Shown: positions 1 through 20,163 of the stretch, piece by piece
Layout: every line of letters starts with the position of its first letter
How positions within the stretch are numbered: position 1 is the stretch's first letter
Assembly: GCF_018417475.1 (NCBI RefSeq)
Contig: NZ_CP054856.1
Coordinates: 3,069,001-3,133,000, forward strand
Direction: 5' to 3'
Source: Novosphingobium decolorationis
GTDB taxonomy: Bacteria; Pseudomonadota; Alphaproteobacteria; Sphingomonadales; Sphingomonadaceae
Length of the DNA: 64,000 nucleotides
The notes under the pieces: generated by a model
Told to the model about the DNA's origin: nothing
What the model saw: the letters and a program-made list of their open reading frames with translations, nothing else
Databases searched by the model: none
Translations under genes and position numbers: made by a program

Positions 1-2376
1 CTGCGCGCCGAGGGCGTTCTGGACCCGAGCGAGGTGCGCGCGGGGCTGGTCAGGCGATTGCGGGATCTGGGCTGCAGCGATCCGCCGCTCGATGCGCGGG
101 CCGAGGCCCTGGAGGCGGCCGACGGGCGCGCGCAAGGCCTGTCGATGGTCGCGGCGCGCCCGGCCTACTTCTGCTCGGGCTGTCCGCACAACCGCAGCAC
201 CCAAGTTCCCGAGGGCAGTTCGGCGATGGGGGCGACCGGATGCCATGGCCTTGCCCACTACATGCCCGGTCGCCACACGATGCAGACGGTGGGTATGGGG
301 AGCGAGGGCACGCCCTGGATTGCTGCGCAGCATTTCGTCGACACGCCGCACTATTTCCAGAACCTGGGCGATGGCACTTATACCCATTCCGGGCTTCTGG
401 CGATCCGCGCCTCGGTCGCGGCGAAGAGCGCGGTCACCTACAAGATCCTCTACAACGATGCCGTCGCGATGACCGGGGGGCAGCCGATGGAAGGGGGGCT
501 TACCCCCCAGCAGATCGTCCGAGAACTGGTGACCGAGGGCGTCGATCCCGTTGTGGTCGTGAGCGAAGCACCCGAGATTTTCGCGCGCGAGGGTCTGCCC
601 GGCAAGGTGCGCGTCCTTCACCGCGACGAGCTGGAACGGGTGCAGCGTGACCTGCGCGAGGTGAAGGGCACCTCGGCGATCCTTTATGAGCAGACCTGCG
701 CCAACGAGAAGCGCCGCCGCCGCAAGCGCGGCCAGCTCGCCGATCCCGATAGACGCCTCTTCATCAACGCGGCGGTGTGCGAGGGCTGCGGCGATTGCTC
801 GGTTCAGTCCAACTGCCTCAGCATCGAGCCGGTCGACACCCAATGGGGCCGCAAGCGCCGCATCAACCAGTCGACCTGCAACAAGGACTTCAGCTGCATC
901 AAGGGCTTTTGCCCCTCCTTCGTGACCGTGGAGGGCGGACGCCCGGCGCGGCGCATGGCGGACCTCGCCGCGCTTGAGGGCGACCTTGCCGCCCTGCCCG
1001 AACCGGCGCGCGTGTCGTGCGCGCAGGGCTTCGACATGCTCGTGACCGGAATTGGCGGGACGGGGGTGCTTACTGTCGGCGCGGTGCTGGCGATGGCCGC
1101 GCAGATCGAGGGCAAGGCGGCGAGCCTGCTCGACATGACCGGCATGGCGCAAAAGGGCGGGGCGGTCGTCAGCCACCTGCGCATCGCGCCCGAGCCTGCG
1201 CAGATCCCCTGCGCCCGGGTCGGCACCGAGCAGGCCGACGTCATCCTCGCCTGTGATCTCGTCGTGGCGAGTGCGCCGGACGTGCGGCGCGCGCAAGGGC
1301 CCGGGACCACGCTGGTCGCCAACGAGGACGTCGCGCCCACGGCCGAATTCCAGACCAATTCCGGCCTCGATCTGTCGGCGGCGCGCTTCCTCTCCGCGCT
1401 GGGGCAGAGGGGCGACCCCGCGCGCGCCTTTGCGGTGCACGCGGGCGAACTGGCGAGCGCGCTCCTGGGCGATGCGATCTTCACCAATTTCCTCATGGTC
1501 GGCTATGCGGCGCAGAAGGGCCTCCTGCCTGTCTCCTTGGCCGCGATCGAGGAGGCGCTGGCCCTGAATGGTACGGCGGTTGCGGCCAATCACAAGGCGC
1601 TGGCGCTGGGCCGGTTGGCCGCGCATGATCCGGGCTGTCTGGAGCGTCTGGCCGGGCTGGCGGACACGGGCGGTGTCGAGCCGGAGACGCTGGAAGGCGT
1701 GCTCGACAGGAGCGCGGCGCATCTTGAGGACTATCAGGATGCGGCCTACGCGCGCGCCTATCGGGAGCAGATGGCGAACCTGCGCGCCGCGATTTCGCCG
1801 GAGGCCGGGGACGTCGGGGACAGGTTCCTGCGCACGGCCGCACGCCAGCTTGCCCGGCTCATGGCCTACAAGGACGAGTATGAGGTGGCGCGGCTTTACA
1901 CCCGGCCCGAATTTGCACGCTCTGTGAACACGGCGTTTGACGGGGACGTGCGCATTGCGCTCAACCTGGCGCCGCCCTTCCTGCCGCTGGGCCGTGACCG
2001 CAAGACCGGACGTCCGCGCAAGATCCGCTTCGGGGCCTGGATATTCCCGCCCCTGCGTCTGCTGGCGCGAGGCAAACGCCTGCGTGGTGGGCCTTTCGAT
2101 CCCTTCGGCTACAGCGCTGAGCGGCGAGCCGAACGCGCTCTGGTGCAGGAGTACGGGGCACTCCTGCACGAACTGGCGCAAGGGCTGAGCGCGCAGAATG
2201 CCGCGCGTGCCATCGAGATCGCGCAGAGCGTGAGCCAGGTGCGTGGCTACGGCCCGGTGAAGGAGGAGAGCATGGCCGCGTGGCGCGCGCTCGTCGCGCG
2301 TGAGCTGCCTGAGTTCAGGGATCGGGCGAGCGATGCTTGCGCTCCGGGCGAGGCCATTGGCGAGGTCATCGCCTAG
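1..2376 (+). CDS. Indolepyruvate-type ferredoxin oxidoreductase, C-terminal two thirds (5' truncated by window)
   Basis: Fused 2-oxoacid:ferredoxin oxidoreductase that would oxidatively decarboxylate an aryl-pyruvate or other 2-oxo acid to its acyl-CoA. The frame is open from base 1, so the start lies outside; 791 residues are visible against about 1,150 in the family. The thiamine-diphosphate half is seen in the FCSGCPHN and ATGCHG segments followed by a GGQPMEGG loop. A cysteine-rich segment (CEGCGDCSVQSNC, then CNKDFSCIKGFC) should hold iron-sulfur clusters. The gamma-type domain begins near the VTGIGGTGVLTVG motif. It sits 41 bases upstream of a Rieske oxygenase gene on the same strand. 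In Novosphingobium tardaugens a homologue (EdcC) is, as I recall, part of oestradiol catabolism, so a catabolic role on a ring-cleavage 2-oxo acid is plausible here. The true substrate is unknown. Confidence 0.9.
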   Translation: MRAEGVLDPSEVRAGLVRRLRDLGCSDPPLDARAEALEAADGRAQGLSMVAARPAYFCSGCPHNRSTQVPEGSSAMGATGCHGLAHYMPGRHTMQTVGMGSEGTPWIAAQHFVDTPHYFQNLGDGTYTHSGLLAIRASVAAKSAVTYKILYNDAVAMTGGQPMEGGLTPQQIVRELVTEGVDPVVVVSEAPEIFAREGLPGKVRVLHRDELERVQRDLREVKGTSAILYEQTCANEKRRRRKRGQLADPDRRLFINAAVCEGCGDCSVQSNCLSIEPVDTQWGRKRRINQSTCNKDFSCIKGFCPSFVTVEGGRPARRMADLAALEGDLAALPEPARVSCAQGFDMLVTGIGGTGVLTVGAVLAMAAQIEGKAASLLDMTGMAQKGGAVVSHLRIAPEPAQIPCARVGTEQADVILACDLVVASAPDVRRAQGPGTTLVANEDVAPTAEFQTNSGLDLSAARFLSALGQRGDPARAFAVHAGELASALLGDAIFTNFLMVGYAAQKGLLPVSLAAIEEALALNGTAVAANHKALALGRLAAHDPGCLERLAGLADTGGVEPETLEGVLDRSAAHLEDYQDAAYARAYREQMANLRAAISPEAGDVGDRFLRTAARQLARLMAYKDEYEVARLYTRPEFARSVNTAFDGDVRIALNLAPPFLPLGRDRKTGRPRKIRFGAWIFPPLRLLARGKRLRGGPFDPFGYSAERRAERALVQEYGALLHELAQGLSAQNAARAIEIAQSVSQVRGYGPVKEESMAAWRALVARELPEFRDRASDACAPGEAIGEVIA

Positions 2377-2417
2377 GTTCGGCATGGCCCGGAGACGAAA
2401 ACCGGAGAGGAATTGCG

Positions 2418-3755
2418 ATGAGCGTGCAGGCAAGCGTCGAGAAGCGGTTGATCGACCGCGCGGTCCGCATCGGGAACGAGGCCTATGTATCCCCCGACTA
2501 CGCGCGGGCCGAGGCCGAGCGGCTCTGGCCGCGGGTCTGGCAGATCGCCTGCCGCGAGGAGGAGATCGCGGCGCCCGGGGACTATGTCACCTATGATATC
2601 GCCGAGGATTCGGTGATCGTCGTGCGCGGGCAGGACGGGGAGGTCCGCGCCTTTCATAACCTGTGCCGCCACCGTGGGCGACGCCTGACCGAAGGTTGCG
2701 GGAACAGGAAGGGCTTTACCTGTCCCTCCCACGCCTGGAGCTGGGACCTGTCCGGCGCGTGCCTTGGCATGACGCGGGGCGAGGCGTGGGACGGGGCGCT
2801 CGGCAAGGAGGACGTGCCGCTGCTGAACGTGCGTGCGGCGACCTGGGGCGGGTGGGTCTTCGTGACGATGGACGAGGATGCGCCGCCGCTTGCCGATTAT
2901 CTGGGCGAGGTGGCGACCAATCTGGCTCCCTTCGAGTTTGGCAAGATGCGCTATCGCTGGCGCCAGTACCTCACCTTTCCCTGCAACTGGAAAGTCGCCA
3001 TCGAGGCCTTCAACGAGGGGTACCATGTCGCGGGCACCCACCCGCAACTGACCAAGTTCTCGGTCAAGCCGACCTGGAGCGATGCCTGGGGCCTGCACGG
3101 CGTGTTCGGCTCGGCTGCGCGGGAAGGCTCGGGCGGGGCGAGCAGCGGCGCGGCCGGCGCGGCGGACATGCGCGAGGGGCTCAAGCATTCGCTTAACCAG
3201 CTGTGGGAGGAAGTGAACGCGACGACCACGCAGACCATGGTCGATGTCGCCAATCTCCTGCCCAGCGAACTGCCCGAGGGTACACCGCCAGCCGAGGTGC
3301 AGATGCACCTCATGAAGCGCACGATCGAGGAGGACGCCAAGCGCGGCGTGCTCTGGCCCCAGATCGACCCGGCCCATTTCGCCAAGGTCGGCAATGTCCT
3401 GCACATCTTTCCCAACACGGTGATCGTGCACGGACCGGTCTTCGCGCTGTGCTACCGCGCGCGGCCCTGCGGCGAGGACCCCAACCGCTGCATCTTCGAG
3501 GTCTACACGCTCGAGAAGTTCCCCGAAGGCGCAGAGCCGCGGCCCGAGAATCTCTACCGCCCCGAGATGACCGAGGCGAACTGGCGCAAGGTCCTGTGCC
3601 AGGATTTCTCGAACATGGAGGCGGTCCAGCAGGGCCTGCGTTCGCGCGCCTTTGCAGGGATCTACCCCAGCCCCGTCGAGGAAAAGGCCATCGTCAACTT
3701 CCACCGCGTGCTCGCCGACTATGTCGGGCGCGGCGCTCCTGAACCCATCGATTGA
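2418..3755 (+). CDS. Rieske aromatic ring-hydroxylating oxygenase, alpha subunit (1)
   Basis: Terminal oxygenase alpha subunit, 445 aa. The Rieske [2Fe-2S] site is C83-x-H85 and C102-x2-H105 (CRHRG, CPSHAW). The mononuclear iron site shows in EAFNEGYHVAGTHPQ, with H203 and H208 as ligands. I chose the ATG at 2418 because GGAGAGG lies 7 bases upstream; the frame is open further upstream but has no better start. No beta subunit or reductase gene is adjacent, so the enzyme may be an alpha-only trimer fed by the Rieske ferredoxin at 6698-7012. It probably hydroxylates or dioxygenates a cyclic or aromatic intermediate; the substrate cannot be assigned. The next gene follows after 11 bases, so they are probably co-transcribed. 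Confidence 0.92.
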   Translation: MSVQASVEKRLIDRAVRIGNEAYVSPDYARAEAERLWPRVWQIACREEEIAAPGDYVTYDIAEDSVIVVRGQDGEVRAFHNLCRHRGRRLTEGCGNRKGFTCPSHAWSWDLSGACLGMTRGEAWDGALGKEDVPLLNVRAATWGGWVFVTMDEDAPPLADYLGEVATNLAPFEFGKMRYRWRQYLTFPCNWKVAIEAFNEGYHVAGTHPQLTKFSVKPTWSDAWGLHGVFGSAAREGSGGASSGAAGAADMREGLKHSLNQLWEEVNATTTQTMVDVANLLPSELPEGTPPAEVQMHLMKRTIEEDAKRGVLWPQIDPAHFAKVGNVLHIFPNTVIVHGPVFALCYRARPCGEDPNRCIFEVYTLEKFPEGAEPRPENLYRPEMTEANWRKVLCQDFSNMEAVQQGLRSRAFAGIYPSPVEEKAIVNFHRVLADYVGRGAPEPID

Positions 3756-3766
3756 AGGCACCGACC

Positions 3767-4963
3767 ATGGCGCAGACCAGCCCCGAGACCGACCTCATCC
3801 TCGATACCCGCGATGTCGACCGCTACGTCGGCAAGCAGGTCGTCTTCGCCGAGATGTGGGACCCTGCCAGCGCGACCGAGATCCGCCGCTGGGTCCAGGC
3901 GCTCGACTACGCGAACCCGCTCCATTACGACGAGGAAGCCGCGCGCGCCTCGCGCTTTGGCGAGATCATCGCCCCGCAGAGCTTCACCGTCGCGATGGAC
4001 TATGGCCACGGTTGCCATCCCTCGTGCATCGGCAACGTGCCGGGCACCCACCTCATCTTCGGGGGCGAGGAATGGTGGTTTTACGGCGGGCGCATCCGGC
4101 CCGGCGACTTCCTGCGCCAGGAGCGCTTCTTTGCCGGTTACAAGGTCACCGACACCAGCTTTGCCGGGCCGACCATGTTCTCGGACGGGGACACCTACCA
4201 CTACCGCGAGGACGGCACGCTCTTTGCGAAGGAACGCGCGACCTCGATCCGTTACTTGCGCGAGGAGGCCAACCGGCGCGGGGTCTATGGCAAGGAAAGC
4301 CGTGGCGTGAAAAGCTGGACCGCCGCCGAGATGGAGGAGATCGACCGCATCCGGCTCGACTGGATCCTCTCCAACCGTGAAGGCGCAACGCCCAACTGGC
4401 ATGCGGTGAAGGTCGGCGACACGCTTCCGCGCCGGGTGATCGGCCCGCACACGCCGCTCACCTTCGGCTTCGAGTACCGCGCGCACCGCCAGAACATCTG
4501 GGGCACCTGGCGTTGGAACCCGCCCGAAGGGTATCAGGATCCGGCCAAGGAGAACGCCGGGTTCGACAAGGACATGACCTACGATTTCGAGGCGCAGAAG
4601 ATCGATCCGCGCCAGAAGGACGGGCTCTACTATGGCCCCTCCAGCGGCCACCTGAACCCGGCCAAGGCCGAGAAGATCGGCATGGGCGGGACCTATGGTT
4701 ACGGCGCCTCGATGAACGCGTGGCATCTTGACTACGTGGCCTACTGGGCCGGGCACGGGGGCTATGTCTGGCATTCCAAGACGCAGTTTCGCAAACCCGC
4801 CTTCGAAGGCGACGTCACCTTCTTCGAGGGCGAGGTTGTCGACAAGTTCGAGACCAGCGAATTCGGCATGCCGACCGTGCGCATCAAGACCCGCCTGACC
4901 ACGCAGGACGGGGACACGATCCTGACCGGCAGCGCCGATGTCGCGCTGCCCCACGTGCGATGA
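3767..4963 (+). CDS. FAS1-like / MaoC-like double-hotdog acyl-CoA hydratase (dehydratase) family protein
   Basis: 398 aa with two hotdog-fold halves. The N-terminal half (about residues 20-160) has the hydratase-2-type motif LDYANPLHYDEEAA, in which D47, N50 and H53 fit the catalytic Asp/His pattern of (R)-specific enoyl-CoA hydratases; the C-terminal half (about 255-395) ends in a hotdog strand set. FAS1-like dehydratase domains of this kind hydrate or dehydrate CoA-bound intermediates, for example mesaconyl-CoA hydratase. ATG 3767 is preferred over TTG 3752 because GAAGG lies upstream at the right distance. Its stop overlaps the start of the acyl-CoA ligase gene by 4 bases, suggesting translational coupling and a joint role in CoA-ester metabolism. 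Confidence 0.85.
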   Translation: MAQTSPETDLILDTRDVDRYVGKQVVFAEMWDPASATEIRRWVQALDYANPLHYDEEAARASRFGEIIAPQSFTVAMDYGHGCHPSCIGNVPGTHLIFGGEEWWFYGGRIRPGDFLRQERFFAGYKVTDTSFAGPTMFSDGDTYHYREDGTLFAKERATSIRYLREEANRRGVYGKESRGVKSWTAAEMEEIDRIRLDWILSNREGATPNWHAVKVGDTLPRRVIGPHTPLTFGFEYRAHRQNIWGTWRWNPPEGYQDPAKENAGFDKDMTYDFEAQKIDPRQKDGLYYGPSSGHLNPAKAEKIGMGGTYGYGASMNAWHLDYVAYWAGHGGYVWHSKTQFRKPAFEGDVTFFEGEVVDKFETSEFGMPTVRIKTRLTTQDGDTILTGSADVALPHVR

Positions 4964-6675
4964 GCGTGCTCTCCGATCTGGTGCGCGAGGCGCCCGGTGA
5001 CAGCGGCCTCTCGCGCGTTGTCGCGATCCCGCTGGCCGAGGAGCCCGGCATTGGCGCGCGCACCATCGGGGGCTATCTGCGCGAGGTGACGGAGCGCTTT
5101 GGCCCGGCCGAAGCGCTCGTCTTCAACGAGGGGGGCGAGCGGCTTTCCTGGACCTATGACGCGCTCTGGGACGAGGCCAGGACAACGGCCCGCGCGCTCC
5201 TGGCGCAGGGGATGGAGCCGGGCGCGCGGATCGGCATCCTGATGACCAACCGGCCCGAATTCCTCTCGGCCTTCTTCGGCATCGCGCTCGCGGGCGGTGT
5301 CGCGGTGGCGCTCTCCACCTTTTCCACGCCGGAGGAACTGGCGCACCTGATCTCGGCGTCCGAAATCCGCACGCTGCTTCTCGAGGCGCGCGTCCTCAAG
5401 ACCGACTTCGTGGCCATGCTGGAGGACCTGGAGCCCGCGCTGGCGGCGACCTCGCCCGAAACCTTTGCCTCGGCCCGTTTCCCGGCCTTGCGCACGCTTG
5501 TGGCTCTTGGCGGGGCGCCGCGCGGGGCCATTCGCGACTGGGCGGCGTGGCGTGCGGGCGGGAAGGGTGTGTGCGCAGGGGACGTCGATGCGCGTCTTGC
5601 CCAGGTCACGCCGGAGGATCCGGGCGGGATCTTCTTCTCTTCGGGTACGACCAGCCTGCCCAAGGGTATCGCGCATAGCCAGCAGGCTTTCGCGATCCAA
5701 TGGTGGCGCTGGCCGCGCCTGTTCGGAATGACAGAGCCCGTGCGCGCCTGGACGGGTAACGGCTTCTTCTGGTCGGGCAATATCTCGATGGTGGTCGGCA
5801 CCGGCCTTTCGACCGGCGGCTGCGTGGTCCTCCAGCGCTATTTCGACGCGGACGAGGCGCTGCGTGTGATTGCGGCGGAGAAGGTCACGTTTGCCAATGG
5901 CCGCCCGCACCAGTGGGCGCGCCTTCAGGCTTCGCCGAACTGGGGCGGGGCGGACCTGTCCTCGCTGCGCCATGTGCCGCGCGGCGAACTGGTCTACGCC
6001 CATCCCACCTGTACGGCGGACTGGGAGGTGCCACAGACCTTCGGGACGACCGAGACCATGTCGCTGTGCACCTCGATCGGCCATCATGCCAGCGAAGAGG
6101 ACTACGCAGGCAGCTACGGCGTGCCCCTGCCCGGCAACGAACTCAAGATCGTCGATCCCGAGACGCGAGAGGTCGTGCCGGTAGGTGCGCATGGCGAGAT
6201 GTGCATCAAGGGCCCGACGCTGATGAGCGGGTACCTGGGCAAGCGACCCGAGGACTGCTTCGATGCCCAGGGCTTCTACTGCACCGGCGATGGCGGACGC
6301 GTCGATGCGCAGGGGCGCTTCTTCTGGGAGGGGCGCCTGACCGCGATGATCAAGACCGGCGGGGCCAACGTCGCGCCCGAGGAGATCGACGAGTTGGTCG
6401 CCAACTGGCCCGGCGTGAAGCGTGCGCAGACCGTGGGGGTGGCCGATCCGTTGCTGGGCGAGCGGGTGGTGACCTGCCTCGTGCCCATCGCGGGGGCCGT
6501 GATCGACGAGGACGCACTGATTACGCATCTCAAGGCAAGGCTTGCCAGCTTCAAGGTGCCCCGCCAGGTCCTGGTCTGCCGCGAGGAGGACTTTGCGATC
6601 ACGGGCAACGAGAAGGTGAAGCCCGCCGCGATCCGCACCCTTGCCGAGCGCCTTCTGGCGCAGGGCGCGGCCTAG
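4960..6675 (+). CDS. AMP-forming acyl/aryl-CoA ligase
   Basis: 571-aa member of the ANL superfamily that would activate a carboxylic acid to its CoA thioester through an acyl-adenylate. The P-loop-like A3 motif FFSSGTTSLPKG is near residue 227; the A5 motif FGTTETMS, the A7 motif YCTGDGG, the hinge and A8 region (GRLTAMIKTGGANVAPEEI) and the A10 lysine region (GNEKVKP) follow in order. The ATG overlaps the stop of the preceding hydratase gene (ATGA). The 3' end is convergent with a Rieske ferredoxin gene 22 bases away. Substrate choice cannot be read; the neighbours suggest a product of ring or side-chain oxidation. Confidence 0.92.
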   Translation: MSVLSDLVREAPGDSGLSRVVAIPLAEEPGIGARTIGGYLREVTERFGPAEALVFNEGGERLSWTYDALWDEARTTARALLAQGMEPGARIGILMTNRPEFLSAFFGIALAGGVAVALSTFSTPEELAHLISASEIRTLLLEARVLKTDFVAMLEDLEPALAATSPETFASARFPALRTLVALGGAPRGAIRDWAAWRAGGKGVCAGDVDARLAQVTPEDPGGIFFSSGTTSLPKGIAHSQQAFAIQWWRWPRLFGMTEPVRAWTGNGFFWSGNISMVVGTGLSTGGCVVLQRYFDADEALRVIAAEKVTFANGRPHQWARLQASPNWGGADLSSLRHVPRGELVYAHPTCTADWEVPQTFGTTETMSLCTSIGHHASEEDYAGSYGVPLPGNELKIVDPETREVVPVGAHGEMCIKGPTLMSGYLGKRPEDCFDAQGFYCTGDGGRVDAQGRFFWEGRLTAMIKTGGANVAPEEIDELVANWPGVKRAQTVGVADPLLGERVVTCLVPIAGAVIDEDALITHLKARLASFKVPRQVLVCREEDFAITGNEKVKPAAIRTLAERLLAQGAA

Positions 6676-6697
6676 GAAGCGGCTGCGTTCGGTGGGC

Positions 6698-7165: not shown

Positions 7166-7633
7166 ATGGCGCAGCAGGACTATTATCAATTCGCCTATGT
7201 CACGACCGACTGGCGGCGCGCGCTGGAGGAACTGGGCGCGCAGCACGATATCGCCACGTGGATGGAAATGCCCGAGGCCGAGTTCGATACAGGGCCCGGC
7301 ACGAAGGCGGTCTGCCACTTCGCGCTGGCCTTCAAGGGGGACCTGCAGTTCGAGGTGATCGAGCCGGTCGCAGGCGATTGCGCGGTCTACCGCGCCGGCC
7401 TTCCTGAAACGGGCTATGCCAAGCGCTTCCACCACCTGGGCCGCCACTTCGCGCAGCGCGCGGACTTCGACCGCCAGCTGGAGGCCGCAAAGGCGCGTTA
7501 CGCCAGGCCCGTCGCCGCCGAGACGATGGGCGGCGAATACGCCTACTTCGATGCGCGCGCGGAAACCGGCCATTTCCTCGAATACTTCATCTTCCCGCCC
7601 GGCTCGCACCTTGAGGGAGTGCCCCGCTCGTGA
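7166..7633 (+). CDS. VOC-fold (glyoxalase/dioxygenase superfamily) protein
   Basis: 155 aa, a single vicinal-oxygen-chelate module of the glyoxalase_4 type. The opening strand (YYQFAYVTTDWRRALEEL) and closing strand (HFLEYFIFPPG) are typical. The usual first metal ligand His at the end of strand 1 appears to be Gln8, while the candidate ligands E in LQFEVIEP, H in FHHLGRHF and E in HFLEYF remain. Function could be isomerase, lyase or non-metal binding. The start at 7166 has GGGAGAGAGC upstream. Its stop overlaps the GTG start of the next flavoprotein gene (GTGA), so both are probably translated together. Confidence 0.75.
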   Translation: MAQQDYYQFAYVTTDWRRALEELGAQHDIATWMEMPEAEFDTGPGTKAVCHFALAFKGDLQFEVIEPVAGDCAVYRAGLPETGYAKRFHHLGRHFAQRADFDRQLEAAKARYARPVAAETMGGEYAYFDARAETGHFLEYFIFPPGSHLEGVPRS

Positions 7634-9393: not shown

Positions 9394-10175
9394 ACGCGCG
9401 CAAGGTGGCCATCGTGACGGGCGCGGCCGGTGGGATTGGCGAGGCAATCGCGCGGCGTTTCGGCGAAGAGGGCGTCGCGGTCCTGGGAACAGGGCGCACC
9501 GAGGCCGCACTCGCCGATCTCAAGGCGCGGCTTGAGGGCGAGATGGAGTTCGACTACGCGGTGGCCGATCTTGCCGCCGATGCGGGACCTGCCGCGGTGG
9601 TGGCCCGCGCCATGGAGCGCTTCGGCCGGATCGATTTTGTCGTCAACAACGCGGGCTCCTTCAACATCGGTCCGGTCGATGCGACCACCGATGCCATGCT
9701 TGACGAAGTGCTCGGCATTTCGCTGCGCGCCCCGTTCCGCCTGTGCCGCGAGGCGCTCGCACACATGGGAGCCGATGGCACGGGCGGGGCGGTGATCTTC
9801 ATCGGCTCGACCTGGGGGCTCTATGGCACGTGTGGGGGCGGGGCCTACAGCGCGGTCAAGGCCGGGCAGATCGGGCTCATGCAGACAATGGCGGCGGAAT
9901 ATGGCCCGCGCGGCATCCGCAGCAACTATGTCGCCCCGACCGTCGTGAAGACGGGGATGACGCAAGGTTTCTGGGAGGCCGACGCCTTCCGGCGGATCAA
10001 CCACGAGTTCACTCCGCTGACCCGCGACTGTACCGCGCAGGATATTGCCGAAATGGTGGTCTTCCTGTGCTCGGACCGGGCCGGGTTCGTCAACGGCCAG
10101 ACCATCGCGGTCGATGGCGGAATTTCTTCCACCCGCTACCTCGCGCCCGAGGCGCTGGGGGCGACGCGGCTGTGA
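9390..10175 (+). CDS. Short-chain dehydrogenase/reductase (SDR) 1
   Basis: 261-aa classical SDR. The cofactor motif is TGAAGGIGEAIA, NNAG follows near residue 87, and the catalytic Tyr-Lys pair is in YSAVKAG with an upstream serine in GSTWG. It would interconvert a hydroxyl and a keto group using NAD(P)H. It is translationally coupled to the KstD-like gene by ATGA. This pairing is common where a ring hydroxyl is oxidised and the ketone then desaturated. The gene ends 6 bases from the convergent CaiB gene. Confidence 0.88.
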   Translation: MNARKVAIVTGAAGGIGEAIARRFGEEGVAVLGTGRTEAALADLKARLEGEMEFDYAVADLAADAGPAAVVARAMERFGRIDFVVNNAGSFNIGPVDATTDAMLDEVLGISLRAPFRLCREALAHMGADGTGGAVIFIGSTWGLYGTCGGGAYSAVKAGQIGLMQTMAAEYGPRGIRSNYVAPTVVKTGMTQGFWEADAFRRINHEFTPLTRDCTAQDIAEMVVFLCSDRAGFVNGQTIAVDGGISSTRYLAPEALGATRL

Positions 10176-10181
10176 GGCGGC

Positions 10182-12541: not shown

Positions 12542-13966
12542 TCAGGGCTGGAGGTCCTCGAGTTTTGCCGAGAAGGGGGGCATCGCCATGTAGCGATCGA
12601 CCGTCTGCTCGAAGTGGCGCACGCGGATTTCCTGGTAGTCGGCAAGGGTCAGGCCCGCCTTGGCGCTGGCTTCCAGCCCCTCCTGCTGGGCGTGGAGATT
12701 GTCGGTGTCCTGATCGAGAATACGGCCGAAACCCGGGTCCATGCCCTGTGCCTCGGCAAAGGACTGGTGGTCTTGCAGGACCTGGACCTCGGCGGTCTCG
12801 AAGTCGCCGCTGCGCGGCTTGGGGCGCATGAACATGACCTCGTAGATGGTGCGGCGATGGTCGCGCGCGTCGGGCCGGAAGCGGTAGATCATCGGCAGCG
12901 AGATGCCGGGGAAAAGGAACAGGTTGGGGAAGAAGGTGTAGCTGTAGGTGTCGAGCAGTTCGGTGTCCGAGACGTGCGAGAGATCGGTGTCGCTCGCGCT
13001 TTCGAACATTTCGCGGAACATGTCGGCCATGACCTGGCGGGCACGCTCGCCCTCCTTCAGTTCCGGCCGCGCGCCGCCCAGCGCCGAACTGTCGCCCAGC
13101 GTGAAGTTGGCGATGATGTCGGCCTCGCTGTAGCGCTCGCGCAGCTTGGGGCTGACCACGCCCAGGGTCGAGATGAAGCGGTCGACGTGCTCGCCATAGA
13201 CATCGTACTGCGAATTGACGTCGCCATTGGCGGGCGCGACCTGGGGGTGCGTGTCGCCCACGTGGTAGGCCTCCATGAAGGCCTCCATGGTGAGCTTCCA
13301 GTTGGCCGGATAGCTCTTCTGGACGTGGAGGTAGATGTAGCGGTCCTCCAGCTTCCAGGCCGTGAGATGGGCAAGGGCCTCGGGGCCGAGGTAGTCCTCG
13401 AGCGAGGGGGCGGCCGGGTCCATGTTGACCCACACGAAGCCGCCGAGCCGGGCGACGCGGGCCTGGGGCAGGCACATCCGGCGCGTCCTGGTATGGGCGA
13501 AATCCCACTTCTCCGGGATGTCGGCCAGCGTGCCGTCGAGATTCCAGGTCCAGCCGTGGAACGGGCACCTGAGGTTCATGGCAAAGCCCTCGGTTGCCGA
13601 GGGCTTGAGCTTGGTGCCGCGGTGGAGGCACGCGTTGTAGTGCGCCTTGATCTCGTCCTCGGCGCTGCGCACGACGATGAAGCTGTAGGAGCCGAGGTCA
13701 TAGACATAGTAGTCGCCCACTTCGGGAATGTGGTCCTCGCGGCAGGCCATCTGCCAGGTGCGCGGCCAGAGGCGCGCGAACTCGCCGTCTGCGAATTCGG
13801 CCCGGGTATAGCGCTCCTTCGAGACATCCTCGCTGCCCAGGTACGTGTAGCTGACATCGCGGGCCCATCCGGGCGCCGTGTTGCGGTCACGCGCGATGAT
13901 GTCCTGCGTGCTCTCGGCAGGGTGGCGGGCTTCGCCGGGGCGCAAGGGGCCGGTTTCGACGTTCAT
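12542..13966 (-). CDS. Rieske aromatic ring-hydroxylating oxygenase, alpha subunit (2)
   Basis: 474-aa terminal oxygenase alpha subunit. Rieske ligands are C113, H115, C134 and H137 (CLHRG, CPFHGW). Mononuclear iron ligands H235 and H240 are in MEAFMEAYHVGDTHPQ. It starts at ATG 13966, where GGAGACC lies upstream. It is only distantly similar to the first Rieske alpha subunit at 2418-3755. Electrons probably come from the Rieske ferredoxin at 6698-7012. The upstream neighbour is an amidohydrolase gene 25 bases away. Substrate unknown. Confidence 0.92.
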   Translation of the reverse strand: MNVETGPLRPGEARHPAESTQDIIARDRNTAPGWARDVSYTYLGSEDVSKERYTRAEFADGEFARLWPRTWQMACREDHIPEVGDYYVYDLGSYSFIVVRSAEDEIKAHYNACLHRGTKLKPSATEGFAMNLRCPFHGWTWNLDGTLADIPEKWDFAHTRTRRMCLPQARVARLGGFVWVNMDPAAPSLEDYLGPEALAHLTAWKLEDRYIYLHVQKSYPANWKLTMEAFMEAYHVGDTHPQVAPANGDVNSQYDVYGEHVDRFISTLGVVSPKLRERYSEADIIANFTLGDSSALGGARPELKEGERARQVMADMFREMFESASDTDLSHVSDTELLDTYSYTFFPNLFLFPGISLPMIYRFRPDARDHRRTIYEVMFMRPKPRSGDFETAEVQVLQDHQSFAEAQGMDPGFGRILDQDTDNLHAQQEGLEASAKAGLTLADYQEIRVRHFEQTVDRYMAMPPFSAKLEDLQP

Positions 13967-13991: not shown

Positions 13992-15278
13992 TCAGGGCGT
14001 CACCGCTTCGGGCGCGGTGCGCTGCCCGGCCGGGACGAGGGGAAGGGCGGTCTTGCACAGCGCCCCGTCCTTCATGACGAGGGCGATGTGGCCGGGGCCC
14101 TGCAGCAGGCGCGGATCGGCAAGCGGATCGCCGTCGACAAGAATGAGATCGGCAAGCTTGTCCGGTTGCAGGGTGCCCAGAGTGCCATCGCCCATCATCG
14201 CCAGGCCCCCGTTCGCCGTGGCGCAGACCAGCGCGCCTTGCGGGGAGTAGCCGTAGTAGTCGATGAAGAACTCGATATCGCGGCCTTGCGTGCCCTGCGG
14301 GCTCCAGCCGAAGCCGTAGTCGCCCCCGATCAGGTGGCGCACGCCGCGCTTGCGCAGTTCGGTGTGGGTGCGGCAGCTGTTTTCGAGCAACTCGGGGATG
14401 TTCATGTAGCCCCCGACCTCGGCCGAAAGGCCGTGGCCGGCCGCCTCGCCCGCCATGATCTGGTGGAACAGGCCGACCGTGGGGACGACGAAGATGCGGT
14501 CCTTCGCCTCTTCCATCAGGTCGAGCAGTTCCTCGTCGGCGTATTCGCAGTGGAACAGCGCATCGACGCCCGCCCGCACGCAGCGCTTGGAGCCTTCGAT
14601 CGAGCGGGTGTGGGCGTTGATCCGGCGTCCGTAGGCGTGGGCGGTCTCGGCCGCGACGCGCACTTCCTCGAAGGTCATGGGCGTCGTGTGCCCGGGCGTG
14701 CCGGGGTAGAACGGGTCGCCGGAGACGTCGATCTTGATGTTGTCGACGCCCTCACGGCAGTGCAGGCGCACCATCTTGCGCATTTCCTCGGCGCCATCGA
14801 CGATGCTGGAGGGGCCGATGCGCGGATCGTGCAGGCGCGCTTCGTCCCCCATCGCGCCGGTGACGCTGATCTCCAGACCCCCGGCGCGGATGCGGGGGCC
14901 GGGCAGGCGTCCGGCGTTGACTTCCTCGCGCACCGCAACGGCGAGACGCAGGCGCGCTTCGGACGCGCCGTAGGCGCTGGTAAAGCCGGCCTCCAGAAGG
15001 GCTGCAGCGCTGCGCGCGGTGGCAAAGCACTGGGCCTCGGGCGTGGGCTTGATGAGGTCTTCGGTCGCGCAGACGTTCTCGAACGAGAGGTGGGCGTGGC
15101 CCTCGACCATGCCGGGCATCAGGAAGCGCCCGCCCGCATCGATCACCGTGTCGCCTGCGTGTGGCTCGAGGGCGCCGATCTCGGCGATGCGGTTGCCCTC
15201 CACGCGCAGCGCGCCAGGAAAGGGGTTCGCGCCGCTGCCATCGAAGATGCGCGCGTTGCAGATCAGCGTTGCCGTCAT
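13992..15278 (-). CDS. Metal-dependent amidohydrolase (imidazolonepropionase/prolidase-like)
   Basis: 428-aa amidohydrolase-superfamily enzyme. The metal site is visible: HxH in EGHAHLSFEN, a candidate bridging lysine in NIKID, His in INAHTRS, His in LFHCEY, and Asp in GGDYGFG. It would hydrolyse a C-N, C-O or C-C bond in a cyclic or amide substrate. I take ATG 15278 as start because GGAAAGGA lies 9-16 bases upstream; an in-frame ATG at 15302 is weaker. No signal peptide is evident. It is the first gene of the minus-strand group and is divergent from the ferredoxin-P450 group. Confidence 0.85.
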   Translation of the reverse strand: MTATLICNARIFDGSGANPFPGALRVEGNRIAEIGALEPHAGDTVIDAGGRFLMPGMVEGHAHLSFENVCATEDLIKPTPEAQCFATARSAAALLEAGFTSAYGASEARLRLAVAVREEVNAGRLPGPRIRAGGLEISVTGAMGDEARLHDPRIGPSSIVDGAEEMRKMVRLHCREGVDNIKIDVSGDPFYPGTPGHTTPMTFEEVRVAAETAHAYGRRINAHTRSIEGSKRCVRAGVDALFHCEYADEELLDLMEEAKDRIFVVPTVGLFHQIMAGEAAGHGLSAEVGGYMNIPELLENSCRTHTELRKRGVRHLIGGDYGFGWSPQGTQGRDIEFFIDYYGYSPQGALVCATANGGLAMMGDGTLGTLQPDKLADLILVDGDPLADPRLLQGPGHIALVMKDGALCKTALPLVPAGQRTAPEAVTP

Positions 15279-15418
15279 GCCGTTTCGGTTCCTTTCCCGC
15301 ATGTTCGTGCCGCGCATCGCCGCGCGCGTCCTGAGGGCAGAGCCTAGACCTGCGCAGGGCTGGGCCGAATGACTGCAGCGGCAAGCCCACTTGGCCGCAG
15401 AGGCTGCCCCTTTGCGAA

Positions 15419-15561: not shown

Positions 15562-15891
15562 ATGGGCGAGATTTGCGTCACGCTGACCGACATCGAGGGA
15601 TCGGTTGTAGAGATCAGGGACGGGGCCGAAGGGGAGACTCTGATGGAACTGGCCCGCCGCCACGACGTGAAGGGCATCATCGCCGAATGCGGCGGCGCAT
15701 GTTCGTGCGCGACCTGCCATGTCTACATCGATGCGGCGTGGAGCGCGGCGGTGGGGGCACCCGATCCGGTCGAGGAGGACATGCTCGACATGGTCGAGGA
15801 CATCCGCCGCCCGACGAGCCGCCTGTCCTGCCAGATCACACTGCATCCAGGGCTCGACGGTCTGGCCGTCGAGGTCGCGCCCGAACTTTGA
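15562..15891 (+). CDS. [2Fe-2S] ferredoxin, adrenodoxin/putidaredoxin type
   Basis: 109-aa electron carrier. Cluster ligands follow the C-x5-C-x2-C...C pattern at C43, C49, C52 and C90, with an extra cysteine at 47. Carriers of this type serve bacterial class I P450s, and a P450 gene starts 124 bases downstream on the same strand. ATG 15562 follows GGGAGGGCG; the frame is open upstream but without family similarity. No ferredoxin reductase gene is seen in the window, so the reductase must be supplied from elsewhere. Confidence 0.9.
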   Translation: MGEICVTLTDIEGSVVEIRDGAEGETLMELARRHDVKGIIAECGGACSCATCHVYIDAAWSAAVGAPDPVEEDMLDMVEDIRRPTSRLSCQITLHPGLDGLAVEVAPEL

Positions 15892-16015: not shown

Positions 16016-17338
16016 ATGACTATCGTGCGAGACGCGGCGAACGACGACACGCAGGCCAGACCGGGCATGGAAGGGGAGGATGCGCGCCTGGTTGCAGAGG
16101 CGACCCTGCTCGACCCGGTTGTGCACAAGCAGCCTCGCCGTTTCTACGCGGCCATGCGCAAGCTCGATCCGGTGCATTACGACGCCGCGCTCGACATGTA
16201 TCTTGTCTCGCGCTGGGAGGATATCCAGACGGTGCAGCGCGATCCGCTCACCTTCTCGGTCAACAAGGGCTACCATACCCAGCAGGCCAAGGGCTTTGCC
16301 GAGGAATTCCAGCAGATCCTGCGCGAGAAGGGCGGGGGCTACTTTCCTGACGCGATCATGTCCGATCCGCCCTACCATACGCGCGTGCGCAAGCTCATGG
16401 AAAGTGCCTTCACCGCGCACCGCGTGAAGGACCTTGAGCCGCGCATCGAGGCGGTCGTCGACGGGCTTCTCGCGGAGCTGGCGGACAAGGGGTCGATGGA
16501 CGCCGTCACCGATTTCGCGCAGCCGCTGACGATCCGCATCATCTGCGAGCAATTGGGGCTCGACGGGTCGATCAAGGACAGGATCGCGCGCTGGTCGACG
16601 GCGGTTACTGCCCAGATCGGGCGCATGCAGGACCGTGAGGAAATGCTGGGGCACGCCGCGCAGATCTGTGATCTGCAGCAGTACCTTATCGCCAAGATGC
16701 GCGAGCGCGAGGCCGATCCGCGCGAAGACATGATCTCGGACATCGTCCATGCCCGTGATGGTGAGGGGGAAGGCTCGGTGCTGACTTTCGAGGAGGCGGT
16801 TTCGCTCATCCGTGCGCTTCTGATCGCGGGCAACGAGACCACCGCGACCGCGCTTTCCAACCTCGTCCTGATCCTTGCGACCGAGCCCGATGTGGCCGAG
16901 ATGCTGCGTGCTTCGGCCGATGACGACCGGCTGATGAACCGCTTCGTCGAGGAACTCCTGCGCATCGAGCCGCCCGTGCGCGGGCTCAGCCGGATGACGA
17001 CAAAGGAGGTCGAACTGGGCGGGCGCGTGCTGCCCGAAGGGGCGCACCTCCTTCTGCTCTACGCCTCGGCCAACGACGAGCCCGAGATCTTTCCCGAACC
17101 GCGCCGCTTCGACATGGAGCGCAAGAACATCATGAAGCACGTGAGCTTCGGGGGCGGGGTACACAAGTGCGTCGGGCTGGCGCTCGCGCGCATGGAAATC
17201 AAGGTCGCCGCGCGCCTGCTCGTGCGCAAGTTCGCCGACGTACGCCTGGCGATTGCCGAGGAGGACATCGCCTACCTGCCCACCGTGGCGACACGCTCGA
17301 TGGAGAGCCTGCCCGTCACCTTCACCTTGCGCGACTGA
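16016..17338 (+). CDS. Cytochrome P450 (1)
   Basis: 440-aa bacterial P450. The I-helix oxygen-activation motif is A271-G-N-E-T-T276; the K-helix ExxR is in EELLRIE; the haem loop is FGGGVHKC with C385 as the proximal ligand. It would hydroxylate an unactivated carbon of a hydrophobic substrate, taking electrons from the ferredoxin encoded just upstream. The start at 16016 follows GGGGAGAGGAC. The stop is 2 bases before the next SDR start. Family (CYP number) cannot be assigned by eye. Confidence 0.93.
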   Translation: MTIVRDAANDDTQARPGMEGEDARLVAEATLLDPVVHKQPRRFYAAMRKLDPVHYDAALDMYLVSRWEDIQTVQRDPLTFSVNKGYHTQQAKGFAEEFQQILREKGGGYFPDAIMSDPPYHTRVRKLMESAFTAHRVKDLEPRIEAVVDGLLAELADKGSMDAVTDFAQPLTIRIICEQLGLDGSIKDRIARWSTAVTAQIGRMQDREEMLGHAAQICDLQQYLIAKMREREADPREDMISDIVHARDGEGEGSVLTFEEAVSLIRALLIAGNETTATALSNLVLILATEPDVAEMLRASADDDRLMNRFVEELLRIEPPVRGLSRMTTKEVELGGRVLPEGAHLLLLYASANDEPEIFPEPRRFDMERKNIMKHVSFGGGVHKCVGLALARMEIKVAARLLVRKFADVRLAIAEEDIAYLPTVATRSMESLPVTFTLRD

Positions 17339-17340: not shown

Positions 17341-18180
17341 ATGGCTGGGGAACTGGACGGCAAGGTCGCCATCGTCACCGGCGGGGCGGGCGGGATCGGC
17401 AAGGCTACCGTCGACCTGTTCGTGGCCGAGGGCGCGCGGGTGGTTGTCGCCGATGTCGACACCGATGCGGGCGAGAGCCTGTGCGCGAAGCTGGGTTCGG
17501 CGGCGGTTTTCCGCCGGGTGGACATGGCGCAAAAGGGCGAGGTGGAGGCACTCGTCGACTTCGCGGTGGAGCGTTTCGGGCGGCTCGATGTCATGTTCAA
17601 CAACGCGGGGATCGCCTGCGGTGCCTTTCCCGATTTTCTCGACGACACGCTGGAGGACTTCGCCAAGGTCGTGGGCGTCAACCTGTTCGGGCCGATGGTC
17701 GGCACGCAGGCCGCCGCACGCGCGATGAAGCGGCAGGGAGGGGGCGGCGCGATCCTCAACAACGCCTCGATCGCGGGCGTACTGGCAGGGCAGGCGATGA
17801 TGACCTACCGCGCCTCGAAGGCGGGGCTCATCCATTTCAGCAAGTCGGCCGCGATCGACCTCGCGCGCCACGGCATCCGGGTGAACTGCCTGGTCCCGGG
17901 CCATATCCGCACACCGCTCAGTGCGTTCGAGGAAGGCTCCGGGGCGGACAATCTGGCGCAGCTGAGCCAGGAAATCGACGCGATCTACCTCTCGAACCAG
18001 CCGCTCAAGCGCCGCGGCTGCCCCGAGGACGTCGCGCAGGCCGCGCTGTTCCTCGCCAGTGACCGCGCCGCACAGATTACCGGCATCGCGCTTCCGGTCG
18101 AAGGCGGGGTCACCACCGGCGATCCGGTCAATCATCTCGCAGACATTCTGGAGGCCCGCAGCCGGGTTCTGGGCGCATGA
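17341..18180 (+). CDS. Short-chain dehydrogenase/reductase (SDR) 2
   Basis: 279-aa classical SDR. TGGAGGIGKATV is the nucleotide-binding motif, NNAG is near residue 85, and YRASKAG holds the catalytic Tyr and Lys. D in VVVADVD after strand 2 suggests NAD preference. It begins 2 bases after the first P450 gene and would oxidise a hydroxyl group, possibly the one that P450 introduces. The second P450 gene starts 28 bases downstream. Confidence 0.9.
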   Translation: MAGELDGKVAIVTGGAGGIGKATVDLFVAEGARVVVADVDTDAGESLCAKLGSAAVFRRVDMAQKGEVEALVDFAVERFGRLDVMFNNAGIACGAFPDFLDDTLEDFAKVVGVNLFGPMVGTQAAARAMKRQGGGGAILNNASIAGVLAGQAMMTYRASKAGLIHFSKSAAIDLARHGIRVNCLVPGHIRTPLSAFEEGSGADNLAQLSQEIDAIYLSNQPLKRRGCPEDVAQAALFLASDRAAQITGIALPVEGGVTTGDPVNHLADILEARSRVLGA

Positions 18181-18208
18181 GCGGGTTACGCGAAGGGAGA
18201 AGGTGGTG

Positions 18209-19363
18209 ATGGAAGCCCAAGTGGACGAGCGCAAGTCGGCGGCGCTGGCCGAGGCGAACCTGCGTGTCGAGGACGGCGCGCAGAAAGTGACGACCTTTGC
18301 CGCCGCGCGCGAGATGCTGCGCCACACGCAGGTCCTGCAGGACGGGGCCGGCGCGGACGAGGTGGACGTGGGCGATCCCGAACAGGTCCCGGTCTTCTAT
18401 CTCGACGGCAAGCCGCACAAGACCCGGCGCGCGGCCATTGCGCGCTTCTTTACCCCGCGCGCGATTTTCGAGCGCTATCAGGCGGTGATGGAAGCCACCA
18501 CCGACCGTCTTCTCGCGGATTTCCGGGCGCGGGGCGAGGCGCGGCTCGACGAGATCAGCTTCGAGCTGGCGGTCGCGGTCGCCTCCAAGATCGTCGGGCT
18601 CTCGCAAAGCGATCCGCACGACATGGCGCCGCGTATCGCGGTGCTGCTGCGCGCCTCGTTCACCAACGCCAAGGGGCTGGCGCGCTGGAAGAACCTGCTG
18701 CTGCGTTCGTGGTACGGGTACCGCTTCTACGTGAAGGACGTGCGTCCGGCCGTGCGGGTACGGCGTGAGGAACCGGGCGAGGACATCATCTCGCAGTGCC
18801 TCGCCAAGGGCTATTCCGACAAGGCGATCATGATCGAGTGCATGACTTACGCCACGGCCGGGATGGTCACCACGCGCGAGTTCATCGTGATGGTCGCCTG
18901 GTACATGTTCGAGCGCGACGAATTGCGCGCGGACTTCCTTGCTGCCGACGAGGAGAGGCAGTTCGCCATCCTGCTGGAGATCCTGCGCCTCGAACCGATT
19001 GCCGCGCTGCTCTATCGCCGTTCGGCGCAGGACCTTCCCGAGACCTGCCTGGGCGCCTTGCGCGAAGGGGCGCGCTTCGTGGTCGACATGCGCGCGGTCA
19101 ATGCGGACGAAGCGGCGGTCGGGGCCTGCCCCCATGCGCTCGATCCCGACCGTGCCAGGGGGCAGCAGGGCACCTTCATGAGCTTTGGCGACGGCGCGCA
19201 CCACTGTCCGGGATGGCAGGTGGCGCTCCACGAGACGCGCATCTTCATTGACCGCCTGCTGCGCGTACCCGGTGTCGCGATGGTGAAGCCGCCCGAAATG
19301 CTCTGGAACGCGCCCCTGATGAGTTACGAACTGCGCGACGCACAGGTGCGCTGCACACCCTGA
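18209..19363 (+). CDS. Cytochrome P450 (2), with altered I-helix motif
   Basis: 384-aa P450, short but complete. The haem loop FGDGAHHC gives C333 as the proximal ligand, and ExxR is in LEILRLEP. The I-helix reads TAGMVTTRE: the usual acidic residue before the conserved Thr is Val. This change alters the normal proton-relay pair and may mean a different reaction, such as peroxide use or C-C cleavage, or a compensating residue elsewhere. ATG 18209 has GAAGGGAGAAGG upstream; an adjacent GTG at 18206 is a weaker option. Confidence 0.9.
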   Translation: MEAQVDERKSAALAEANLRVEDGAQKVTTFAAAREMLRHTQVLQDGAGADEVDVGDPEQVPVFYLDGKPHKTRRAAIARFFTPRAIFERYQAVMEATTDRLLADFRARGEARLDEISFELAVAVASKIVGLSQSDPHDMAPRIAVLLRASFTNAKGLARWKNLLLRSWYGYRFYVKDVRPAVRVRREEPGEDIISQCLAKGYSDKAIMIECMTYATAGMVTTREFIVMVAWYMFERDELRADFLAADEERQFAILLEILRLEPIAALLYRRSAQDLPETCLGALREGARFVVDMRAVNADEAAVGACPHALDPDRARGQQGTFMSFGDGAHHCPGWQVALHETRIFIDRLLRVPGVAMVKPPEMLWNAPLMSYELRDAQVRCTP

Positions 19364-19420
19364 TCGACGGGCGATATCGGCGCTGCGATACGCCTTACGC
19401 TTGTTCCCGGCCCCCCGCCG

Positions 19421-19464
19421 TGGCTACCACGGGGGCAGACGTGGTGCGCCGTCCGGCGCCGGAC
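19421..19464. promoter_or_regulatory. Hairpin plus 14-bp perfect palindrome upstream of SDR 3
   Basis: A short stem CCGTGG-cta-CCACGG sits at 19428-19442 inside C-rich and G-rich flanks. It is followed by the perfect palindrome GTCCGGCGCCGGAC at 19451-19464. The palindrome ends 18 bases before the SDR start codon, next to its ribosome-binding site. It may be an operator or an end-of-transcript structure for the P450 gene; the sequence does not decide. Confidence 0.4.
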
Positions 19465-19482
19465 AGGCTGGGAGAAACGCAG

Positions 19483-20163
19483 ATGGCAGGCAGATATATC
19501 GTCACCGGCGGCTTCGGGGTGCTGGGCCGCGCCGTCTGTGCCCAGCTCCGCCGTGAAGGCCACCGCGTCGGCGTGATCGACATGGCACCCAGTCCGGATG
19601 GCTACGAAGGTCCCGCCGAGGGGGGCATCGACCTCTCCGATCCCACGCAGGTCGGGCCTGCCGTGGCGCGGCTGGTCGCGGATCTGGGCGGGCTTGATGG
19701 TCTCGTCAATGTTGCGGGCGGTTTCGTGTGGGAGCCGTTGGGGCCGGGTTCTCCGGCCACGTTCGAGCGGATGTACCGCACCAACCTGCACACCGCGACC
19801 ACGGCGTGCGAGGCGGTGCTGGATACGCTCGCGCCGGGTGGGGCCATCGTCAACATCGGCGCGGCGGCGGCCCGCGCTGCGGGCGAGGGCATGGGCGCCT
19901 ACGCGGCGTCCAAGGCCGGGGTCCTGGCGCTGACGCAGGCGCTTGCCGCGCAGCTGCGGCCCCGGGGAATCCGCGTGAACGCGGTCCTGCCCACCGTGCT
20001 TGATACCCCGACCAACCGCGCCGACATGCCCGATGCCGATCCTGGCGAATGGATTGCTCCTGCCGCCGCAGCGCAGGTCATCGCCTGGCTGCTTTCGCCT
20101 GCGGCATCTTGCGTGACCGGAGAGGGGATCGCGCTTTCGATGGGGCAGGGAAAAGACAATTGA
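19483..20163 (+). CDS. Short-chain dehydrogenase/reductase (SDR) 3
   Basis: 226-aa SDR. TGGFGVLGRAVC is the cofactor motif and YAASKAG the catalytic Tyr-Lys. NVAGGF replaces the usual NNAG. D in GVIDMAP suggests NAD preference. The start at 19483 is preceded by GGGAGAAACGC. It is the last plus-strand gene of the first catabolic block and is followed by a long inverted repeat. Confidence 0.85.
   Translation: MAGRYIVTGGFGVLGRAVCAQLRREGHRVGVIDMAPSPDGYEGPAEGGIDLSDPTQVGPAVARLVADLGGLDGLVNVAGGFVWEPLGPGSPATFERMYRTNLHTATTACEAVLDTLAPGGAIVNIGAAAARAAGEGMGAYAASKAGVLALTQALAAQLRPRGIRVNAVLPTVLDTPTNRADMPDADPGEWIAPAAAAQVIAWLLSPAASCVTGEGIALSMGQGKDN

Follow-up and report, generated by a model that had tools for sequence, protein, structure and literature searches.

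The first 20 kb of the window, a 64,000-nucleotide stretch of Novosphingobium decolorationis DNA (bases 3,069,001-3,133,000 of the 4.64-Mb contig NZ_CP054856.1), carry a set of catabolic genes that includes a KstD-like flavoprotein. In the best reading, they form the right-hand end of a single catabolic island some 78 kb long, from about -58.3 to +20.2 kb (negative coordinates lie upstream of the window). An earlier note, made from the letters alone, had named in positions 1-20163 two Rieske oxygenase alpha subunits, two cytochromes P450 (P450s), the KstD-like protein, a hotdog hydratase, an acyl-CoA ligase, two CaiB CoA-transferases, three short-chain dehydrogenases/reductases (SDRs), an amidohydrolase and a 2-oxoacid:ferredoxin oxidoreductase (IOR), and all of these families were confirmed by Pfam. 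The gene families, their active-site motifs, and the conservation and co-inheritance of the set are directly established. The interpretation tentatively favored here, with confidence just short of even, is that the island encodes an aerobic route for breaking down a steroid-like polycyclic ketone, most probably a terpenoid.

Families were assigned with Pfam and NCBIfam scans. Between -58.3 and 20.2 kb, 65 genes were called, 61 of which were scanned with Pfam (the unscanned reading frames are of 95, 114, 200 and 327 aa). Gene starts are those of our own caller and may differ from the starts in the earlier note; the caller overlooked the Rieske ferredoxin, and in some relatives genes are truncated or missed. 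Homology cut-offs were of our own choosing. For related loci, named bacterial genomes were scanned and 80 loci kept, 71 of them with a KstD match of at least 52%. At these 71 a match required at least 45% identity over half of the query, within fetched flanks of up to 10 kb. A family sample of 397 genomes was drawn evenly from a larger family, with the best 3-4 first-look candidates scored per genome.

The right edge of the island, near 20.2 kb, looks real because the next two genes (a histidine kinase and a porin) occur at none of the 71 related loci; genes #66-71, to the right of this point, have no match in any of 15 mapped related regions. The left edge near -58 kb is an estimate and less certain, and some genes between -58 and -49 kb adjoin the module in genome G352 and in Sphingobium sp. 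RAC03. The window starts inside the island, and holds the 3' two thirds of the IOR-type gene, the rest being cut off by the window edge. The absence of a thiolase, on which part of the earlier argument had been built, is for this reason an edge effect and that argument fails: two thiolases lie upstream of the window (Table 1).

In the KstD-like protein, residues Y116, Y365, Y541 and G545 align to Y119, Y318, Y487 and G491 of KstD1, which we take to be the catalytic residues of that enzyme in its own numbering, so that all four are kept; the Y-x3-G signature noticed earlier is Y541/G545. The nearest solved relative is a 3-oxosteroid 1-dehydrogenase (7p18, 421 bits). Any further KstD-like match in the host genome is no stronger than E 5.9e-18. 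Related islands (L167:3592-5271, L029:11-1705, L188:11245-12912 and L194:16592-18262) carry another KstD-like flavoprotein, distinct from that of the window and 33-36% identical to it.

The comparison of gene neighborhoods that the earlier note had proposed was run, and the set is shared as a unit. In the close relative Novosphingobium profundi EaN21-2, the proteins of the 0-19 kb genes are 92-99% identical. Of the 16 called window genes, 14 were found within 60 kb in S. cavernae, 14 in Sphingomonas LaA6.9 and 12 in G352. Counts among the 71 KstD loci were highest for SDR1 (37), the ACAD (acyl-CoA dehydrogenase) beta gene (36), CaiB1 (28), P450a and SDR2 (25 each) and the ligase (20), followed by AraC (19), IOR (16), Rieske 2 and HyuA (15 each) and the amidohydrolase (12); the rarest were the hotdog gene (5), Rieske 1 (2) and P450b (1). 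At the nine loci with KstD under 52%, none of 29 queries matched. A compact core is found in the Gammaproteobacteria. In Nevskia and Solimonas fluminis it consists of the ligase, hotdog gene, Rieske 2, amidohydrolase, a VOC-type gene, IOR, KstD and ferredoxin, together with SDR2, P450a, AraC, two CaiB genes, HyuA, HyuB and a crotonase-like gene; that of Stenotrophobium is less complete with the caller used. All three have a gene of 155-160 aa beside IOR, the Nevskia copy being a Glyoxalase-family protein. A more distant betaproteobacterial version (L172) is seen on pBB1 of Cupriavidus necator N-1 (397-439 kb), with KstD at 53%, IOR at 54%, and CaiB, SDR, thiolase and ACAD relatives at 48-55%. 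A DNA search of plasmids with window positions 1-12000 returned 10 records, each matching within the IOR gene alone: nine of them at 60-80%, the tenth over 39 bases at 97%.

The genes are also inherited together where they are not neighbors. When ten named KstD-bearing genomes of our choice were searched whole (nine from loci already showing other island genes), Rieske 2 was found in all ten at 63-83%; in the tenth, the complete chromosome of IC081, it lies 0.39 Mb from KstD. Among the 397 family genomes, the same six (the host included; three genera by the labels of the tool) hold KstD, Rieske 2 and P450a at identities of at least 70, 64 and 61%, respectively; outside those six, the next best values are 60, 50 and 56%. 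The chance of drawing the same six genomes at random is 1.9e-13, a figure that ignores the kinship of genomes. KstD is 173 kb from Rieske 2 and P450a in G212 and on another contig in G328, and the hotdog gene is present at 66% or more in five of the six. Judged from these comparisons, the view that the set behaves as one pathway, conserved as a unit across Alpha- and Gammaproteobacteria, is supported.

Table 1. Genes of the island, in coordinates counted from the first base of the window
Feature	Position	Strand	Basis or remark	Identity in mapped related regions
IOR (indolepyruvate/2-oxoacid:ferredoxin oxidoreductase)	1..2376; whole gene called -1178..2376	+	NF009589, 959 bits	52-68% in the 9 regions showing it
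Rieske oxygenase alpha subunit 1	2418..3755	+	no beta subunit seen	70-71%, S. cavernae and LaA6.9 only
FAS1-DH/MaoC-type hotdog hydratase/dehydratase	3767..4963	+	Pfam	65-68% in 5; 43% in RAC03
AMP-binding acyl-CoA ligase	4960..6675	+	Pfam, NCBIfam	55-63% in 7
Rieske-type [2Fe-2S] ferredoxin, 104 aa	6698..7012	-	overlooked in earlier note	
Small VOC-type protein, tentative	7166..7633	+	Glyoxalase_4 E 0.0014, below cut-off; overlooked in earlier note	65-73% in 4
KstD-like FAD protein (3-keto-delta1-dehydrogenase)	7630..9393	+	Pfam, active-site residues	
SDR 1	9390..10175	+	Pfam	
CaiB/class III CoA transferase 1	10182..11390	-	Pfam	
CaiB/class III CoA transferase 2	11387..12517	-	Pfam	
Rieske oxygenase alpha subunit 2	12542..13966	-	Pfam, motifs	
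Amidohydrolase	13992..15317	-	metal-ligand pattern intact; paired with Rieske 2	
[2Fe-2S] ferredoxin beside P450a	15562..15891	+	overlooked in earlier note	50-57% in 8
Cytochrome P450 a	16016..17338	+	Pfam, heme motif	
SDR 2	17341..18180	+	Pfam	
Cytochrome P450 b	18203..19363	+	Pfam, heme motif	
SDR 3	19420..20163	+	Pfam	48-58% in DEHP117, RAC03 and S. fluminis
AraC-type regulator	upstream of IOR		Pfam	
Run of seven: CaiB, crotonase, ACAD, SDR, thiolase, NMO-type, CaiB	-14569 down to -21981	-		
Thiolase	-19901..-18741		in minus-strand run	
Two further Rieske alpha genes	-30960 and -25886			
ACAD pairs, two	-37677..-33361		adjacent genes	
2-Oxoacid dehydrogenase E1 alpha/beta	-39808..-37794			
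TauD, ligase, ACAD, HpcH lyase, AcCoA hydrolase, crotonase, HyuB, HyuA, crotonase-like gene	upstream			
Third P450	-47026..-45857		left part of island	
Thiolase	-50337..-49081		left part of island	
Ligase, two CaiB genes, second amidohydrolase	further left			
Two MarR-type genes	within scanned island			

The two CaiB reading frames of the window overlap by 4 bases and are therefore likely a pair. Upstream, an aldehyde dehydrogenase at -23642..-22143 (L005) consists of two reading frames (200 and 291 aa) and corresponds to a single 497-aa gene in the IC081b relative; it is possibly broken. Downstream of the island the window holds another FAD_binding_2 flavoprotein and an ApbE-type gene (31778-33175 and 44197-45204), and a PADLOC scan of two small downstream proteins gave no match.

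The Rieske CxH/CxxH motifs and the heme Cys motifs of the P450s are intact. All four Rieske alphas checked, two in the window and two upstream, bear the PF00848 catalytic domain and have a Glu three residues before the first iron-ligand His. This we take to be the position of the bridging Asp in dioxygenases, with a presumed parallel in the carnitine monooxygenase CntA. The alphas resemble ring-hydroxylating dioxygenases in their N-terminal half. Among NCBIfam models, glycine betaine monooxygenase matches the two window proteins best (124 and 96 bits, against a cut-off of 670). Among solved structures, however, aromatic dioxygenases rank first and carnitine monooxygenase follows lower in the list. 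Searched at the protein level, Rieske 2 has 4794 relatives at E <= 1e-60 among 7998 scored, of which the best 120 carry generic names; its predicted structure is too poor for use (mean pLDDT 44.8). Related Rieske and amidohydrolase genes lie near IS256 transposases on a conjugative plasmid of Sphingobium sp. WTD-1 (L123, 80-100 kb), where one Rieske gene, with a short annotation of 963 bases, may be truncated. On pNL2 of N. aromaticivorans (L212, 150-166 kb), four Rieske alphas form a separate cluster together with a P450, a VOC gene, an FAD-dependent oxidoreductase and SDRs.

The amidohydrolase adjoins Rieske 2 in all ten mapped regions that show both. It has the HxH motif as well as K195, H236, H256 and D333, presumably its metal ligands. 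The P450a model is good (mean pLDDT 84.1). Its 50 best PDB neighbors mix CREJ, CYP109, P450BioI, CYP199A4 and EryF with sterol and steroid P450s (CYP125MRCA at rank 6, CYP142, CYP109B4), and as modeled they do not point to a substrate. P450b, on the right of the island, is a 61% paralogue of the third P450, which lies about 64 kb away on the left. The best matches of HyuA and HyuB are the caprolactamase proteins CapA and CapB (581 and 232 bits, cut-off 1000), and HyuA also matches acetophenone carboxylase at 297 bits.

The lack of a ring-cleavage dioxygenase, which the earlier note had remarked on, holds over a wider range. No extradiol or intradiol dioxygenase and no ring-hydroxylating beta subunit were found among the 61 scanned genes, and none of the 14 PF00903 matches of the host genome falls in 3,009,001-3,153,000. 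Enzymes of the 9,10-seco route were sought in 18 genomes with queries for the HsaA/TesA2-type monooxygenase and the HsaC/TesB-type extradiol dioxygenase, taken from pNL2 of N. aromaticivorans (276,255-278,407) and named from their annotation and neighborhood. All seven gammaproteobacterial carriers have both an HsaA-like (47-59%) and an HsaC-like gene (44-55%), and these organisms are probably steroid degraders. Among 11 alphaproteobacterial KstD genomes, both are present at 43% or more in one (S. cavernae). Two more have an HsaA-like gene at 46%, one of them with an HsaC-like gene at 36%; the remaining ones reach at most 36% for HsaA and 38% for HsaC. In the host, nothing matches the HsaC query at 1e-20 and the best HsaA-like match is at 26% (E 2.2e-28). 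Since most alphaproteobacterial carriers and the host have no close HsaA and HsaC, the island would not depend on the 9,10-seco route as an accessory to it. For the IpdAB-type CoA hydrolase of that route, the host genome offers three PF01144 pairs as family-level candidates, none of them in the island; for its KshA-type Rieske hydroxylase, the comparison covered the four island Rieske proteins, all with PF00848.

Published clusters are compared here as the accessible parts of their sources describe them. The edc estrogen cluster of Caenibius (Novosphingobium) tardaugens, another sphingomonad, also combines a P450, an IOR with a VOC gene, and CoA and beta-oxidation genes (PMC7793797). In that cluster EdcC, the IOR, is thought to decarboxylate and CoA-load the estrogen ring-cleavage product, with the VOC gene beside it, and a pyridine adduct is reported to accumulate when edcC is mutated (PMC7793797). 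The island IOR belongs to the family of EdcC, a likeness at the level of the family. However, edc includes the extradiol dioxygenase EdcB, acting on 4-hydroxyestrone, and a putative TetR regulator (PMC7793797), neither of which Pfam shows among the 61 scanned island genes, where AraC-type and two MarR-type genes are found instead; unlike edc, the island has KstD, alpha-only Rieske proteins, a CaiB pair, HyuAB and the AraC-type gene. The edc reading was rejected because no PF00903 match, and hence no extradiol gene, falls in 3,009,001-3,153,000.

The canonical 9,10-seco (tes/hsa) route and HIP degradation share with the island a KstD-like enzyme and ACAD pairs. The island run of NMO, thiolase, SDR, ACAD and crotonase genes is one that we take to resemble the HIP degradation genes. 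The island differs in that its Rieske proteins carry PF00848 and in the addition of IOR, HyuAB and CaiB, and the route was rejected because the host has no close HsaA- and HsaC-like genes. The abietane cluster dit was rejected because no beta subunit or extradiol gene is present among the scanned genes; DitA2 is presumably the beta subunit beside DitA1. A P450, a Rieske oxygenase, an SDR and a CoA ligase are common to both. The dit cluster has, in the accessible text, the ring-hydroxylating dioxygenase DitA and a putative ring-cleavage enzyme DitC (PMC10710418, PMC13063091). Riboflavin and lumichrome catabolism combines a P450, amidases and Rieske proteins (PMC12746152), but was dropped because "CoA" does not occur in the accessible part of that paper. 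No published assignment of this gene set to a substrate was found in the available portions of PMC7793797, PMC8540908, PMC8399759, PMC12882949, PMC12175502, PMC4810484, PMC10710418, PMC13063091 and PMC12746152, most of the subscription literature being outside the search, and the literature searches turned up no recognizable account of the cluster. The earlier description of an uncharacterized island that matches no textbook cluster is supported: the island is conserved as a unit and is unlike the edc, bile-salt and dit clusters as described.

A pathway for a polycyclic, steroid-like ketone could use these genes as follows. Hydroxylation of the skeleton would fall to P450a, served by its ferredoxin, and to the alpha-only Rieske oxygenases, served by the Rieske ferredoxin. 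SDRs would generate ring ketones and the KstD-like enzyme a 3-keto-delta1 system. The amidohydrolase and crotonase-type proteins may then open the activated ring hydrolytically, in place of extradiol cleavage, to give a 2-oxo acid, which the IOR, perhaps with the VOC protein, would convert to an acyl-CoA by oxidative decarboxylation. The ligase and the CaiB transferases would place CoA on further acids. Ring remnants would pass to beta-oxidation by the ACAD pairs, crotonases, hotdog hydratase, NMO-type protein, SDR, thiolase and HpcH-type lyase. Steroid-like chemistry is plausible from the KstD residues, the 7p18 relative, the adjacent ACAD pairs, the HIP-like run and the HsaA/HsaC genes of the gammaproteobacterial carriers.

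A number of observations weigh against this interpretation. The KstD-like protein falls under the curated KstD cut-off (477 bits vs. 789 for NF009478) and is therefore filed as KstD-like only, and it scores 310-362 bits against cyclohexanecarboxylate dehydrogenase models. With no close HsaA or HsaC in the host, the association of the gammaproteobacterial carriers with steroids may be ecological. The possibly steroid-like substrate of the earlier note is plausible but no more: the active site, the nearest solved relative and the seven gammaproteobacteria favor it, and the KstD cut-offs and the host's own gene content do not. The unity of the set is also imperfect. Many Novosphingobium loci show the KstD/ACAD module alone within 10 kb of KstD (in the one searched genome-wide, L047, Rieske 2 was found elsewhere in the genome), and in family-sample genomes with KstD at 58-60%, Rieske 2 and P450a have no close counterparts. 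In G328 the hotdog gene and KstD are apart, the IC081 modules are at two sites, and the single locus among the 71 with P450b is that of N. profundi. HyuAB, being nearest to caprolactamase models, could mean a nitrogenous substrate, and the hydrolytic opening and the VOC step are our inference.

Among the alternatives, it is unlikely, though slightly less so than those that follow, that several unrelated catabolic operons have gathered in one hotspot and form no single pathway. The left module is found alone on plasmid pBSY17_1 of Sphingobium sp. RAC03, at 52-84% (ACAD pairs, two Rieske genes, CaiB, HpcH lyase, AcCoA hydrolase, crotonase and TauD); there, in contrast to the island, KstD is at 36%, and IOR, P450a and Rieske 2 were not found in the 49.9-kb stretch. 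The two sites in IC081, and the lack of any P450b match in the 15 mapped related regions, also suit a hotspot. It accounts poorly for three genes sharing the same six genomes out of 397, including those in which KstD lies apart from the others, and for the compact core in Gammaproteobacteria.

It is also improbable that the island serves the bile-salt side-chain pathway of Sphingomonadaceae, or is some other accessory of the canonical 9,10-seco route. A locus titled "Novosphingobium sp. Chol11" (L048) holds a large part of the set, the enzymes of side-chain degradation in Chol11-type bacteria have yet to be identified according to the accessible text of PMC8399759, and HsaA/HsaC-like genes accompany the set in every gammaproteobacterial carrier. 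The side-chain clusters (bsd I of C. tardaugens; Nov2c221-230 of Chol11) share an ACAD pair, a monooxygenase, an amidohydrolase/amidase and a CoA ligase with the island, but as far as described they are a different gene set (PMC12882949, PMC8399759). N. aromaticivorans is listed as a bile-salt degrader in the available part of PMC12175502, and its plasmid pNL2, the only replicon of it searched, gives at best 40% for KstD and 46% for Rieske 2. The HsaA/HsaC results for the host and most alphaproteobacterial carriers also count against this alternative.

A comparably low likelihood attaches to an alicyclic nitrogen substrate, alkaloid- or lactam-like, on which the Rieske proteins would carry out N-dealkylation or hydroxylation next to nitrogen, with the amidohydrolase and HyuAB hydrolyzing an amide or lactam. 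The caprolactamase and glycine betaine monooxygenase matches, the Glu at the bridging position and the constant pairing of amidohydrolase and Rieske 2 are consistent with it. Nevertheless, acetophenone carboxylase is a further match of HyuA, the amidohydrolase fold does not in itself point to nitrogen, CoA and KstD chemistry makes up most of the island, and no amine dehydrogenase was noticed in the Pfam results of the scanned genes. An aromatic pathway, for a polycyclic aromatic hydrocarbon or a lignin dimer, is suggested by the N-terminal halves of the Rieske alphas but is very improbable given that the scanned genes include no beta subunit or ring-cleavage dioxygenase and that the KstD active site is intact.

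It is conceivable, though doubtful, that the island represents a second, undescribed aerobic strategy for polycyclic steroid-like skeletons. KstD, P450 and Rieske enzymes would prepare the ring, hydrolysis would give a 2-oxo acid, and the IOR would turn this into an acyl-CoA, with no extradiol dioxygenase needed; the package is common to Alpha- and Gammaproteobacteria, including genomes without close HsaA and HsaC. Hydrocarboniphaga, Novosphingobium and Sphingomonas are genera with predicted steroid degraders, according to the accessible part of PMC4810484. The package is kept across two proteobacterial classes, these genera among them, and offers concrete candidate genes for the breakdown of steroid-like pollutants or plant terpenoids. 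Should the reading without extradiol cleavage be true, it would be a different way to open polycyclic rings under air.

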